Below, in pieces: positions 924-40,283 of a stretch of DNA of 64,000 nucleotides. Under the pieces are notes generated by a model. That model did not search any database. It was not told the origin of the DNA and saw nothing but the letters and a program-made list of their open reading frames with translations. The stretch is from Peptoniphilus stercorisuis. GTDB lineage: Bacteria > Bacillota > Clostridia > Tissierellales > Peptoniphilaceae. The position numbers were made by a program, and so were the translations under genes. Where the stretch lies: assembly GCF_017874395.1 (NCBI RefSeq), contig NZ_JAGGLJ010000004.1, positions 62,001-126,000 on the forward strand. The letters run 5' to 3'. How positions within the stretch are numbered: the stretch's first letter is position 1; each line of letters opens with the position of its first letter.

Positions 924-1120
924 TTACTTCAACTCCTCTATTTATTATAACAAAATTAAAGAAAATAAGAATAGATTTTCAAATACTAATAATATTAAAT
1001 AAGTAATATAGAACTAATGTTTTCTTTAATTCCCTTACATTTAACATTTAATACACATAATTTTCACAGATGAGCTATATAGTATAAACATACTAATTAT
1101 TAATGGGAGGTATATTATTA

Positions 1121-1408
1121 ATGAAAAATCTTAAAAAAGTTCTTAGTGTTGCAACTGTTGGTGTTATGATGTTTGGACTAGTTGCTTGTGGAAATAAAGA
1201 AGCTGCTAACAATGCTCCAGCTAACAATAACACAGCTGTAGAAGAAGCTGCTAACAATGCTGAAGAAGCTGCTAACAACGCAGAAGAAGCTGCTAACAAC
1301 GCTAAAGAAGAAGAAGCAAACGCTAAAGAAGAAGAAGCTAATGCTAAAGAAGAAGAAGCTAACGCTGCTGAAGAAGAAGCTGCTAACGCTGAAGAAGAAG
1401 CAAAATAA
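1121..1408 (+). CDS. Small lipoprotein with 7-residue Ala/Glu/Asn repeats
   Basis: A 95-residue protein. The ATG at 1121 is chosen because GGGAGG lies 11 bases upstream; an in-frame ATG at 1103 would precede the ribosome site. Residues 1-23 form a lipoprotein signal ending in the lipobox LVAC, so the mature protein would be lipid-anchored at the outer face of the membrane. The rest is almost wholly repeat: EEAANNA units followed by KEEEANA units, each seven residues long. A strict heptad rich in Ala and Glu suggests a long helix or coiled coil, in general style like Braun-type lipoproteins, though no homology is claimed. The gene stands alone with its own terminator. Function unknown. Confidence 0.85.
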   Translation: MKNLKKVLSVATVGVMMFGLVACGNKEAANNAPANNNTAVEEAANNAEEAANNAEEAANNAKEEEANAKEEEANAKEEEANAAEEEAANAEEEAK

Positions 1409-1569: not shown

Positions 1570-3147
1570 GTGTTTTGTCCCAATTGTGGAAATGAAATAC
1601 CACAAAATAGCAACTATTGCCCAGTTTGTGGTAAAAAATTAAAAGATGTTAAAATATCTATCACTCCTATTAATACTGATGAAAATAAAGATACTAATAA
1701 ATCTCTTGATGACAATAACAAAGATGCTACTAGAATCTTTAAACCTATTGGTACTATTGATGGAATTGATAATACAGACGAAATAAAAGATATTATAAAA
1801 GCTGTTGATGAAAAAATTTCTGAAAACATACACAAATATGAGACCAGTTCTTTTTCAAAAAGCGAACTTAATTTAGACAAAAAAGCTGATTCTAAAATCG
1901 ATAAAAAAACCTCTTCTAAAAAAGAAGATAAAAAAGAAAATAAAACCAGCTCAAAACAAAAAAACGAAACTTTAGAAGAAAATAAAAATACTAAAGAAAA
2001 TACTCCTTTAGTTGAGAAATCCTTTACTAAAAAAGAAATAGAAGAAACTCCAAAGAAAAAAAAGAATTTAAAGGAATTATGGAATAATTTTATAAATGAA
2101 GATGATGATAAGTTCTCTATATTCTCCTCTTTTAGTGAAGAACAAGATAAAAATACTAAAGAAGATAAAATTGAAATTTCAACTAGCGCCAATACCTCAA
2201 ATACATCTGATACTTATATGGAAAACACAATGGGTATTCCTAAAATTGAAATTGAAAAAAAATTAAAAGAATCAGGATTTAAAGAAGACATAAAAAAAGA
2301 TAATACTAAATCTAAAAAACTTCCTGAAAAAGAAAAAGAACAAAAAGCAAATAAAAAAAATAGTAAAAAAGAAGATAAAAAAACTAAAGACAAAGTAGTT
2401 GAAAAAACAAAATTAGAAGATCCAAAAGAAAAACTTAGTCATAAGAGTTTTACTGATCAAGTTAATGAGGAACTGAAAAAATTAGAAAATCAAAAAGATA
2501 CAAATGATAATTCTAAAAAAGACAGTTCTAAATCAGAAAATCAAAAAGAAGATAAAAAAGTTGAAATAAATAATCCAACAAGACTTAAATTTTATAATTT
2601 TATGGATTTAGTTTCATCTAAACTTGATAAAGTAAATTCAAAAGTTGTATCTGATGGCAAAAGATCTTTTATGATTACATTGATTATAGGTATTATTCTT
2701 TCCTTTGTACCTATTATTATGGGATATAAAAGAATATCCTTTACACTTATATTACTTTTAGTTTTTAAATTACTATTTAATATTTTAGAGTTTTATGTAC
2801 CATTAAATATTACAACAGAAAAAGTGTGGGTTGAAACAAGTGAGGATGAAGTTAAATATTTTGCTTTTATAAATTGGTTTATATGCCAAGTTTTCCTATT
2901 TGTATCCTTTGTATTGTCACCTTGGGATGGAGGATTATTTACATTTAATCTTCTTCCAGCACTGACACCACTACCTATTGCCACTATTATATTGTTTTTA
3001 ATGGCTATTACTATTACTCTTGCTCAGTATTGGAATCAACTTAAATATGAAAATAAAACCAACTTTATTGGCTGGTATTCAATATCTTTTATATTAATTC
3101 ATTTCGTATCGAAATTATTTTTTGTTTTAACAAATTTTATGTATTAA
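1570..3147 (+). CDS. Zinc-ribbon, Lys-rich, multi-spanning membrane protein
   Basis: A 525-residue protein starting at GTG, with AAGAAGGTGA about six bases upstream. Residues 1-22 are a zinc ribbon (CPNCG then CPVCG). Residues ~25-345 are strongly Lys/Glu/Asn/Ser-rich and look disordered. Residues ~370-525 hold about five hydrophobic segments, including IGIILSFVPIIMG and a final segment ending VLTNFMY. This zinc_ribbon_2 plus linker plus membrane plan is widespread in Firmicutes, usually without known function. The linker could bind nucleic acid or anionic envelope polymers, but that is speculation. It is a single-gene unit with its own terminator, convergent with the T-box transcript from the other strand. 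Confidence 0.85.
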   Translation: MFCPNCGNEIPQNSNYCPVCGKKLKDVKISITPINTDENKDTNKSLDDNNKDATRIFKPIGTIDGIDNTDEIKDIIKAVDEKISENIHKYETSSFSKSELNLDKKADSKIDKKTSSKKEDKKENKTSSKQKNETLEENKNTKENTPLVEKSFTKKEIEETPKKKKNLKELWNNFINEDDDKFSIFSSFSEEQDKNTKEDKIEISTSANTSNTSDTYMENTMGIPKIEIEKKLKESGFKEDIKKDNTKSKKLPEKEKEQKANKKNSKKEDKKTKDKVVEKTKLEDPKEKLSHKSFTDQVNEELKKLENQKDTNDNSKKDSSKSENQKEDKKVEINNPTRLKFYNFMDLVSSKLDKVNSKVVSDGKRSFMITLIIGIILSFVPIIMGYKRISFTLILLLVFKLLFNILEFYVPLNITTEKVWVETSEDEVKYFAFINWFICQVFLFVSFVLSPWDGGLFTFNLLPALTPLPIATIILFLMAITITLAQYWNQLKYENKTNFIGWYSISFILIHFVSKLFFVLTNFMY

Positions 3148-3148
3148 G

Positions 3149-3171
3149 AAAAGCCCATTTGGGCTTTTTTA
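3149..3171 (+). terminator. Terminator after the zinc-ribbon membrane protein
   Basis: AAAAGCCC, short loop, GGGCTTTTTT directly after the stop codon at 3145-3147. Confidence 0.85.
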
Positions 3172-3179
3172 TTTTGCAT

Positions 3180-3208
3180 AAAAAAATAACACGCATGTGC
3201 GTGCTATT
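3180..3208 (-). terminator. Terminator facing the T-box transcript
   Basis: On the minus strand AAATAGCACGCA, loop CA, TGCGTGTTATTT followed by T residues forms a 12-bp stem with one mismatch and a U-tract. It would stop any transcript that reads through the upstream T-box terminator about 75 bases earlier, before it invades the convergent gene. Confidence 0.7.
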
Positions 3209-3281
3209 TCTTAGTAGAATATTTAGTATAAGATTAAAAAATAATACTTATCGTAATTTAATTAGTGGCTCAATGTACAAT

Positions 3282-3525
3282 AAAAAAAGTCTCTTTTTGT
3301 AAAAACAAAAAGAGACGTATAATCCGCGGTACCACTCTAATTGATGATTGCTCATCCTCTTAAAACTTTTATCGAAGTTAACCGTCAATAGCTTGTATAT
3401 ACTCACTATTAAATCTCCATAGTCCTAGTTCATATTTCCTTAATATATTGGTTCTCACCTATCCCAATTCTCTTTAATATCTTAAAAATACTACTTCCTA
3501 TTTCATTGATTAAAATTTATAACTA
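3282..3525 (-). ncRNA. T-box leader RNA with no downstream gene
   Basis: The minus strand carries the invariant T-box core AGAGTGGTACCGCGG (complement of 3324-3338). It is followed by a terminator stem (3289-3316, GTCTCTTTTTG paired with CAAAAAGAGAC) and a U-tract (3282-3288). Upstream lie a stem I with an AGTA turn, the apical GGTGAGAACC segment and a specifier-loop strand reading GAACUAGG. A lower stem GUAGU/ACUAU encloses that loop. The specifier codon could be CUA (Leu) or ACU (Thr); I cannot settle it by eye. T-boxes sense uncharged tRNA and normally precede aminoacyl-tRNA synthetase or amino-acid genes. Here no minus-strand gene follows: only about 75 bases, then a second terminator and the convergent gene. 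Confidence 0.9.
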
Positions 3526-3531
3526 TCTAAA

Positions 3532-3560
3532 AGTATAAACCCTTTAATTAATTTTGTCAA
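3532..3560 (-). promoter_or_regulatory. Consensus sigma-A promoter of the orphan T-box
   Basis: Minus-strand TTGACA (3555-3560), 17-base spacer, TATACT (3532-3537). Transcription would start near 3525, at the 5' end of the T-box stem I. The promoter lies just after the rib-operon HAD gene, so the T-box is an independent transcription unit. Confidence 0.8.
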
Positions 3561-3567
3561 CATTATT

Positions 3568-4212
3568 TTAAATAATATCTAAAATTTCTTTTATATCATC
3601 AATTCTATAATTTGCATTATTTCCTTCTTCTTCTTTTCCATAACCATAATTACAAAATATTGATTTTATATTATTATAATCAGCTGATAGCATATCATGA
3701 AATCTATCACCTACAAATATATAATCACCTTTATATTTATCGATTACATTTTCTAAAATTTTTTCTTTTGGAATATAATCAAATTCTTCAGATGTATAAA
3801 ATCTAGTTACATATTTATCTAGGTTAAATCTTTTAATAGCATTATCTCTATATTTATTCATACAATTACTAATTAAAATAATTGTTTTGTTATCTTCTTT
3901 TAATTTACTAAATACTTCTTCAGTTCCCTTGAATAGAGTCGTCTTTTTCGCTAAAATATCAGATTCCAATCTTAAACCTATACTATTCATAAGTTTTTCC
4001 CTTTGTTCCTTTGGAAGATCTGGCATAAATTCTCTCCACATATCTGTTGGACTATATCCTAAATATTTCCTAGACTCTTCTTTTGTAATGCTCTTTGATA
4101 TTCCAGCTAAAATACATGTATCTTCTAAGATCTTGTGATAAGTATCTGCTACATTATGAATAGTACCATCAAAATCTAAAAATACAGTGTTAATCTCTTC
4201 AAGTTTATCCAT
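3568..4212 (-). CDS. HAD-superfamily phosphatase ending the riboflavin operon
   Basis: About 214 residues. The ATG at 4212 (overlapping the ribH stop) follows TTAGGAG; a TTG one codon earlier is an alternative. HAD motifs are visible: DFDGT (motif I, nucleophile Asp), LISN (motif II), a Lys in IPKEKI (motif III) and VGDRFHDM (motif IV). The helical cap between motifs I and II is of the phosphoglycolate-phosphatase type. It is translationally coupled to ribH as the last gene of ribD-ribE-ribBA-ribH. Riboflavin synthesis needs a phosphatase that dephosphorylates 5-amino-6-(5-phosphoribitylamino)uracil between RibD and RibH, and HAD proteins do this in other bacteria. The position makes this a good candidate. 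That assignment is inference; HAD substrates cannot be read from sequence. Confidence 0.85.
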
Positions 4213-4672
4213 CAATTAATTCTCCTAAATTTGCAAGTTCTATTGCCCCTAGTGCAACTTCATAACCCTTGTTACCACTTTTAGTTCCTGCTCTTTCAAT
4301 AGCTTGTTCTATTGAATTAGTTGTAAGAACTCCAAATAATACTGGCACATTCTCCTCAAGTGAAATACTTGCTACACCCTTAGATACTTCTGCACATACA
4401 TAATCAAAATGTGGTGTTGCACCTCTAATTACAGCTCCCAAACATATTATAGCATCATAAGATCCTTTTTTGGCACATTTCTTAGCAATATATGGTATTT
4501 CAAAAGCACCCGGAACCCAAATTACATCAATTTCTTCATCCTTTGCACCATGTCTTGTTAAACAATCTATACTTCCTTCTAAAAGTTTATTTGTAATAAA
4601 TTCATTAAATCTAGCTACAATAATTGCATATTTTTTGCCTTCTGTTATTAGTTTTCCATTATATATATTCAT
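4205..4672 (-). CDS. ribH: 6,7-dimethyl-8-ribityllumazine synthase
   Basis: 155 residues, the usual family length. It condenses 5-amino-6-ribitylaminouracil with 3,4-dihydroxy-2-butanone 4-phosphate to lumazine, the penultimate step to riboflavin; family members form pentamers or 60-mer capsids. Visible hallmarks are the N-terminal [18 protein letters not shown], the [16 protein letters not shown] phosphate-binding stretch, and [19 protein letters not shown] with the conserved GNKG. It lies 11 bases after ribBA and overlaps the HAD gene, so it is read from the FMN-riboswitch-controlled transcript. Confidence 0.97.
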
Positions 4673-5894: not shown

Positions 5895-6545
5895 CTAAAA
5901 GCCATTTTCCGCTAAAAAATCTAAAGATAAAGAACTTACTTTTTCGTCTTTACTTTTATCTCCATTTAAAAATCTATCAATGTATTTCCCAATAATATCT
6001 ATCTCTAAATTTACTATATCCCCTATTTTTAAATCATTAATTATCGTTTCTTTTAAAGTATGTGGAATAATTGAAACCTCAAAATAATCCTCTTTTAAAT
6101 CACTAATCGTAAGACTTACTCCACTAATTGTAATAGAGCCTTGTTTAACTAACTTATTTAATAAATTTTCTTTAGCTTTTATAGAATAAACCTTAGACAA
6201 ATCCTCATCTCGAATATTAGCTATTTCGCCTATTCCATCTACATGACCTTGAACAATATGTCCTCCAAGTCTATCTTTTAAAGATAAAGCTCTTTCTAAA
6301 TTAACCTTACTAGAAATATCTAAATTATATAAATCAGTCTTTCTTATAGTTGATTCAATTGCATCTACTGTAAAAGAATATTTGTCAAAATCTGTTACAG
6401 TAAGGCAAACTCCATTAGTACAAATACTATCACCAAGTTTAATATCCTCTAAAACCTTATTTGCAGATATAGTTAAACTTAATGAATTTGAATTTTTTTT
6501 AATATTTTTAATAATTCCCACTTCTTCAACTATTCCTGTAAACAT
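5895..6545 (-). CDS. ribE: Riboflavin synthase, alpha chain
   Basis: 216 residues from the ATG at 6545, which gives the canonical start [10 protein letters not shown] and has GGAG nine bases upstream; in-frame ATGs just upstream are less likely. It dismutates two lumazines to riboflavin plus a ribitylaminouracil. The two internal repeats expected of the family are seen: NGVCLTV in the first and [10 protein letters not shown] in the second, with [13 protein letters not shown] between. The start overlaps the end of ribD by 20 bases, indicating translational coupling. Confidence 0.96.
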
Positions 6546-7635
6546 TTTCAACATCTCCAATTACTAAAATATCTCTATCAATTTTTTCAATAGAAGTAAT
6601 ATTTATATTAAATCCATCTTTTATTCTCTCTATACCATCTCCCTCAACAGAGGTCTTAGCATCTTTCCCACCAATAATCATAGGCGCTATATAAAAATAC
6701 ACTCTATTAACTAAATTTTCCTTAAGCATAGAATAATTAAGATTTCCTCCACCTTCTAAGAGAATACTTGATATATCTTTTTCATATAAAACTTTTAATA
6801 TTTCACTTAAATCTACTTTATTATCTTTTTCATTTACTATAATAACTTCTACATTTTCTTTATCTTTTAATAAATTATATTTTTCCAAATCATAATATTT
6901 TGTAGTAAATATAATTGTTTTTGCAGAAGATTTTATATTTAAAACCTTTGAATCTATTGGAATTCTAAGCTTTGAATCCACTATTATCCTAACAGGATCT
7001 CTAAGATTATCTATTCTAGTATTTAAACTTGGATCATCTTTTAAAATAGTATTTATACCAACTAATATTCCATCTAAATACCCTCTAAGCATTCTGCCTG
7101 ATTTTCTACTCTCACTTGATGTTATCCATTTTGAATCACTAGTTTTTGTTGCAATCTTGCCATCTAAGCTCATTGCTGATTTTAAAACTACATAGGGCAT
7201 TTTATTTTTTATACTATGAAAAAATACTCTATTTAAATCATTACACTCTTTTTCTAAAACTCCTGTAACAACTTCAATTCCTGCTTTTTTAAGCTTTTTA
7301 ATTCCATTTACCTTAGGGTTTATATCTCTACTTCCTATAACAACTTTTTTTATTTTATTTTTTATTATTAAATCACAACAGGCATTTCTCTTACCAATAT
7401 GAGAACAAGGTTCTAGCGTTACATATAAAGTACTTCCATAAACACTTTCTACTGCATTATTTATTGCATCTTCCTCAGCATGTTCACCTCCAAAATACTT
7501 ATGATATCCTTCTCCTATGATTGTATTGTTTTTAACAATCACAGCTCCCACTAAGGGATTTGTCTTTGTATTTCCTCTTGCTAATCTTGCAAGATTAATT
7601 GCTTTATTCATAAAATAAATATCTTTATTTTCCAT
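6526..7635 (-). CDS. ribD: Bifunctional diaminohydroxyphosphoribosylaminopyrimidine deaminase / reductase
   Basis: 369 residues. It carries out the second and third steps of the GTP branch of riboflavin synthesis. The N-terminal zinc deaminase has HAEED at 52-56 and PCSHIGKRNAC with zinc cysteines 77 and 86. The C-terminal reductase has KSAMSLDGKIAT and ILLEGGGNLNYSML. It is the first gene of the operon, with its start just behind the riboswitch terminator. A GGTGATTT ribosome site immediately precedes the ATG. Confidence 0.96.
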   Translation of the reverse strand: MENKDIYFMNKAINLARLARGNTKTNPLVGAVIVKNNTIIGEGYHKYFGGEHAEEDAINNAVESVYGSTLYVTLEPCSHIGKRNACCDLIIKNKIKKVVIGSRDINPKVNGIKKLKKAGIEVVTGVLEKECNDLNRVFFHSIKNKMPYVVLKSAMSLDGKIATKTSDSKWITSSESRKSGRMLRGYLDGILVGINTILKDDPSLNTRIDNLRDPVRIIVDSKLRIPIDSKVLNIKSSAKTIIFTTKYYDLEKYNLLKDKENVEVIIVNEKDNKVDLSEILKVLYEKDISSILLEGGGNLNYSMLKENLVNRVYFYIAPMIIGGKDAKTSVEGDGIERIKDGFNINITSIEKIDRDILVIGDVENVYRNS

Positions 7636-40016: not shown

Positions 40017-40277
40017 AAAAAAGCCTCTCGCCTCTTAATTGCCTATAGCAAAAGAGACGAAAGGCTGAAAGCTTCCGCGGTACCACTCTTCTTCATCTTT
40101 ATGATGCTCCTCGATCCAATAATGAATAGCTCTGTAACGGGAGCTCCCGTTTATCCCTACTTAATTTCAAGATAACCATTTAATGACTAGTTCAACGACT
40201 TTATCTAAATACTTCACACCACCCAGTATCTCTCTTTATAGATTCATCATCATCTACTGCTTCATTTCTTTATGTTT
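40017..40277 (-). ncRNA. T-box leader of the ykvI-ilvE operon
   Basis: Minus strand carries AGAGTGGTACCGCGG (complement of 40075-40089). The terminator stem is AAGAGGCGAGAGGCT paired with AGCCTTTCGTCTCTT, with U-tract at 40017-40022. Stem I has the apical GGGTGGTGTGA and a specifier-loop strand GAACUAGUC between the helices AUCUA/UAGAU and GAUGAU/GUCAUU. CUA (Leu), ACU (Thr) or GUC (Val) could be read as specifier. The downstream permease and ilvE favour a branched-chain amino acid. Confidence 0.92.
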
Positions 40278-40283
40278 TATAAA

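Follow-up and report, generated by a model that had tools for sequence, protein, structure and literature searches.

What is a complete T-box doing where there is no gene for it to regulate? To our knowledge, T-boxes have been treated as cis regulators only. In the window (the whole stretch of DNA analysed, 64,000 nucleotides of Peptoniphilus stercorisuis, whose genome belongs to the Anaerosphaera group of the Peptoniphilaceae), the minus strand from 3560 to 3180 carries a promoter, a full T-box, a terminator (T1), a spacer of ~72 nt and a second terminator (T2). What lies beyond is a convergent gene on the other strand (Table 1).

Architecture of the element and its predicted tRNA

The leader matched the Rfam T-box model over its full length, and its score passes the gathering cut-off for RF00230 (93 bits). 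Of 14 promoter-like sites detected in the region scanned, this promoter ranked first. T1 is a hairpin with a 12-pair stem (3316-3289, -15.6 kcal/mol) followed by a U-run, and it has GTCTCT in common with the antiterminator, so that the two structures are predicted, from sequence only, to be mutually exclusive. Between T1 and T2 and just past T2, we found no Shine-Dalgarno (SD) sequence with a start codon. The possibility that the read-through RNA encodes a short peptide was rejected, as the frames there span 10-19 codons, lack an SD sequence and are not common to the gene-less copies described below. A first-pass annotation had described a complete T-box with this promoter and its own terminator, a second terminator about 75 bases on, and no ribosome site or start before the convergent gene; all of this stands. 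Sub-threshold Rfam matches near 3144-3239 (ncr1015, STnc370 and others) were treated as chance, and a search of plasmids gave no match.

Table 1. Features of the gene-less T-box element and its neighbours in the window
Feature	Position	Strand	Basis
Promoter TTGACA-N17-TATACT	3532..3560	-	consensus scan, 11/12 positions
T-box leader RNA RF00230	3308..3515	-	108.3 bits, E 5.6e-23
Stem I, with AGUA/GAA loop E motif and AGAGA ... GGUGAGA apical motif	3415..3507	-	alignment to RF00230 and 17 other Arg T-boxes
Specifier codon AGG (Arg)	3424..3426	-	invariant across 18 aligned Arg T-boxes
Stem II	3387..3410	-	ATAG/CTAT in window; AGAG/CTCT and CAGG/CCTG in two counterparts
Stem III	3343..3357	-	pairs retained in 3/3 gene-less copies
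T-box/antiterminator AGAGTGGTACCGCGG...CGTCTCT, UGGU bulge	3311..3338	-	sequence alignment
Terminator T1 and U-run	3282..3316	-	GTCTCT common to antiterminator
Second terminator T2	3180..3209	-	hairpin 3209-3184 and U-run ending ~3180; -14.8 kcal/mol
Convergent zinc-ribbon membrane protein gene (neighbour)	1570..3147	+	Pfam Zn_Ribbon_1 PF13240
HAD hydrolase gene, last of upstream rib operon (neighbour)	3568..4215	-	Pfam HAD_2 PF13419

The convergent zinc-ribbon gene has its own plus-strand terminator at 3147-3170. It adjoins a small lipoprotein-like open reading frame with Ala/Glu/Asn-rich repeats (1103-1408, plus strand), and a similar frame occupies the same place in the Peptoniphilaceae MAG G004 (L090:2955-3251). 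On the other side of the element, the rib operon is led by an FMN riboswitch; there is no terminator in 3532-3568 on the minus strand, and transcription of rib may therefore continue into the T-box.

To which tRNA would this leader respond? The first-pass annotation had left the specifier codon to be fixed. An alignment of 15 gene-linked arginine T-boxes with the three gene-less copies (18 in all) settles it as AGG. A leucine specifier, CUA, considered at first by comparison with the window's T-box at 40050-40279, was rejected, because its first two bases are not conserved and AGG is invariant. The genome encodes one tRNA-Arg with the anticodon CCU (ARAGORN), which ends in ACCA, complementary to the UGGU bulge; specifier, anticodon and discriminator agree. 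Given the invariant AGG and this fit to the bulge, the tRNA sensed by the element is predicted to be tRNA-Arg(CCU).

Within the family, the nearest relatives are Peptoniphilaceae leaders of argG or arginine transporter operons. These share with the element the AGG specifier, stems I-III, the UGGU bulge and the antiterminator/terminator, with up to ~70% identity between the element and gene-linked leaders. However, they precede argG or a transporter, whereas the window element precedes nothing. By every sequence criterion tested the element is a T-box, but it has no gene to regulate in cis.

Occurrence of gene-less T-boxes in the genus

We compared five genomes of the genus: the window genome, Anaerosphaera aminiphila DSM 21120, A. 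multitolerans, Peptoniphilus mikwangii and the MAG G004. The window genome has 18 T-box matches, the other 17 of which precede genes for amino-acid metabolism, transport or tRNA charging. Across the five genomes there are 79 matches (one being the second module of a tandem argG leader), and exactly three are gene-less, defined as having no gene within ~120 nt downstream. These lie in the window genome, A. aminiphila and P. mikwangii, and both a gene and an SD sequence are absent downstream in all three. The A. aminiphila and P. mikwangii copies scored 101.5 and 112.5 bits against RF00230, compared with 98.7 and 107.2 bits for the genus's own argG leaders. Both have promoters matching at 11/12 positions (TTGACA-N16-TATTAT in A. 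aminiphila, L087; TTGACA-N17-TATACT in P. mikwangii, L088), and both have T1 followed by a T2-like hairpin.

The three copies have neighbours in common pairwise. In A. aminiphila the T-box is flanked by the zinc-ribbon gene, as in the window, and on its other side by a divergent gshA-like gene. The P. mikwangii copy is likewise divergent from gshA; it has no same-strand gene for ~700 nt and no convergent gene. A repeated TTTTGTCATTTCGAC-like stretch occupies the DNA between this T-box and the next gene (L088, ~6400-7000). In the homologous intervals of A. multitolerans (zinc-ribbon gene to gshA) and MAG G004 (zinc-ribbon gene to HAD) the T-box is absent, and the element is therefore dispensable.

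No minus-strand gene downstream, of the kind that the first-pass annotation had set against its own reading, was found in the four relatives. Among the five genomes argG is present only in A. aminiphila and A. multitolerans, where it occupies a different locus, next to a yaaA-like gene; genus g30 has the same arrangement. In other genera, a T-box core was found within 1.5 kb of gshA at none of 27 loci, and no T-box was found at zinc-ribbon loci. The idea that other genera still have the lost gene next to gshA or the zinc-ribbon gene was rejected, as no T-box core was found there.

Conservation and decay

Is the element a conserved RNA or a leader in decay? In a tree of the zinc-ribbon protein, the window genome groups with G004, A. 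aminiphila and A. multitolerans form a second pair, and P. mikwangii stands alone; therefore, the element is present in all three lineages of the genus. The T-box tree groups the three gene-less copies, with weak support (48/76). Gene-linked Arg T-boxes have 56 conserved positions, of which the window copy keeps 54, the A. aminiphila copy 52 and the P. mikwangii copy 53; the probability of such retention at 50% per site is <1e-11. Four-fold sites, meanwhile, are saturated: their identity is 0.436 in dnaX (window to A. aminiphila) and 0.42 in gshA (A. aminiphila to P. mikwangii), and ~41% is expected by chance from composition. In the stems of the three copies 92.5% of cells pair. Seven pairs have changes on both sides, a count that none of 500 shuffles reached, and in stem II three pairs are changed on both sides. 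The T1-T2 spacer is not conserved, and the read-through product contains no recognisable module.

This pattern would indicate selection on the RNA, provided that a single, early event removed the gene. Three separate losses, all of them recent, would look no different; these are less likely, because a gene is missing there from every genome of the genus and because no T-box was found beside gshA (the 27 loci) and the zinc-ribbon gene in other genera. Recent decay following gene loss appears unlikely given the shared neighbours, the presence in three lineages, the retention of 52-54 of 56 positions despite saturation, and the compensatory changes in the stems. The proposal that a regulated gene was lost recently, raised in the first-pass annotation as its alternative, fares poorly against a gene-less T-box in three diverged species.

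A broader form of this explanation is that the T-box once led an arginine gene here (argG, art or similar), that this gene disappeared, perhaps through several parallel losses, and that an element with no present function remained. It would fit with the lack of argG in the window genome and P. mikwangii, with the closest T-boxes leading argG or arginine transporter genes, and with two of the five genomes being entirely without the element. However, it does not account for three copies that remain intact, with compensatory changes, at this divergence. It is also at odds with the absence of a gene at this place from all five genomes, with the position of argG in A. aminiphila and A. multitolerans at another, older place, and with the empty gshA and zinc-ribbon loci of other genera. 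We regard a functionless remnant as unlikely, albeit a reading that deserves to be kept in view.

Candidate roles of the RNA

What, then, might maintain the element? The T-box could persist only because T1 and T2 end the upstream rib operon, since the minus strand was found to lack a terminator from the HAD stop codon (3568) to the T-box promoter. T1 and T2 may indeed also serve in this way in the window genome. This cannot apply in A. aminiphila and P. mikwangii, where the gene upstream of the T-box, gshA, points away from it, and it leaves the conserved stem I, specifier and antiterminator unexplained. As the reason for the element's persistence, we consider it improbable.

The convergent arrangement in the window and A. 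aminiphila suggests another role, in which the read-through RNA made on arginine starvation acts against the zinc-ribbon gene. Antisense-oriented T-boxes are predicted elsewhere: a computed survey counted 107 among 15,851, without enrichment (PMC9943018). Antisense action is unlikely here, because the zinc-ribbon gene has its own terminator, the predicted ends (~3180 on the minus strand, ~3175 on the plus strand) abut without overlap, and in P. mikwangii no gene converges on the T-box. T2 would stop the read-through RNA, although some transcription may run through T2. Moreover, no link of the zinc-ribbon protein to arginine was seen, and A. multitolerans and G004 retain its gene while lacking the T-box. 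The amino-acid-dependent antisense control proposed in the first-pass annotation did not hold up, and we rate it as very improbable. A hairpin like T2 follows the zinc-ribbon gene in A. multitolerans, which lacks the T-box; for this reason T2 may belong to the zinc-ribbon gene as a bidirectional terminator, and the view that T2 is conserved strictly as part of the T-box unit is weakened.

The reading that we favour, with moderate confidence, is that the element encodes a conserved free-standing noncoding RNA, responsive to tRNA-Arg and derived from an argG/art-type T-box leader. With charged tRNA-Arg, transcription would stop at T1 to give a product of roughly 240 nt; formation of the antiterminator with uncharged tRNA-Arg would extend it to T2, roughly 340 nt. 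No protein is encoded by either predicted RNA, so the element most likely yields a noncoding RNA that varies with arginine supply in its length and perhaps in its activity. With less confidence, and by analogy with SreA and Rli55 in Listeria, one of the two RNAs might act in trans, by base pairing or by titrating tRNA or protein. The tRNA-sensing small RNA that had been one suggestion of the first-pass annotation has become the favoured one, given that the T-box is intact, carries a promoter and terminators of its own and lacks a gene in three lineages. A stronger claim, which we advance tentatively, is that this is a regulatory small RNA gated by tRNA-Arg(CCU): the first T-box to give up its gene, kept by selection as a free-standing RNA that controls other genes, or titrates uncharged tRNA-Arg, in trans.

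Riboswitches that gate RNAs in this manner have precedents in other classes. The SAM riboswitch of ubiG-mccB-mccA in Clostridium acetobutylicum gates an antisense RNA (PMC9943018), and in Listeria SreA, AspocR and Rli55 are noncoding or antisense RNAs gated by SAM or cobalamin riboswitches (PMC8079631). The antisense-acting riboswitches (the SAM riboswitch of ubiG-mccBA and the cobalamin riboswitch of AspocR) resemble the element in facing a convergent gene without a downstream gene of their own. In contrast to them, the window transcripts are predicted not to overlap, one copy of the element has no convergent gene, and the ligand would be tRNA-Arg. Rli55 is gated by B12 and sequesters EutV, and SreA is a terminated SAM riboswitch acting in trans (PMC8079631). 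Both have a short terminated and a longer read-through form, as predicted for the element, and Rli55, like the element, contains no coding sequence. They differ in that the element's ligand would be a tRNA and no ANTAR-like module was found in it; SreA, unlike the element, still leads an operon. The orphan c-di-GMP-I riboswitch between CD2517 and CD2517.1 in Clostridioides difficile (PMC11477304) is likewise without a known regulated function, but belongs to another riboswitch class.

A literature search, within a limited collection, revealed no earlier description of a conserved T-box that lacks a gene. If the gene-less T-box has indeed stayed intact across saturated divergence, a tRNA sensor can persist as an independent RNA product, and three culturable or sequenced species are on offer for seeking tRNA-charging signals relayed by a small RNA.

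The gene-linked arginine leaders also vary in layout. The argG leaders of A. multitolerans (L021/L093) and A. aminiphila (L024/L092) have one stem I followed by two or three tandem T-box/antiterminator-terminator modules, and the same layout occurs at L039, L047, L051 and L157 (genus g38). Genus g36 (L172-L176) has back-to-back Arg-type T-boxes a few hundred bases apart, one leading argG and the other an arginine-type ABC transporter. In the argG leaders L163 and L166 of genus g30, an insert starting GACCTAAC separates the T-box terminator from argG, the start codon of which lies several hundred bases off.
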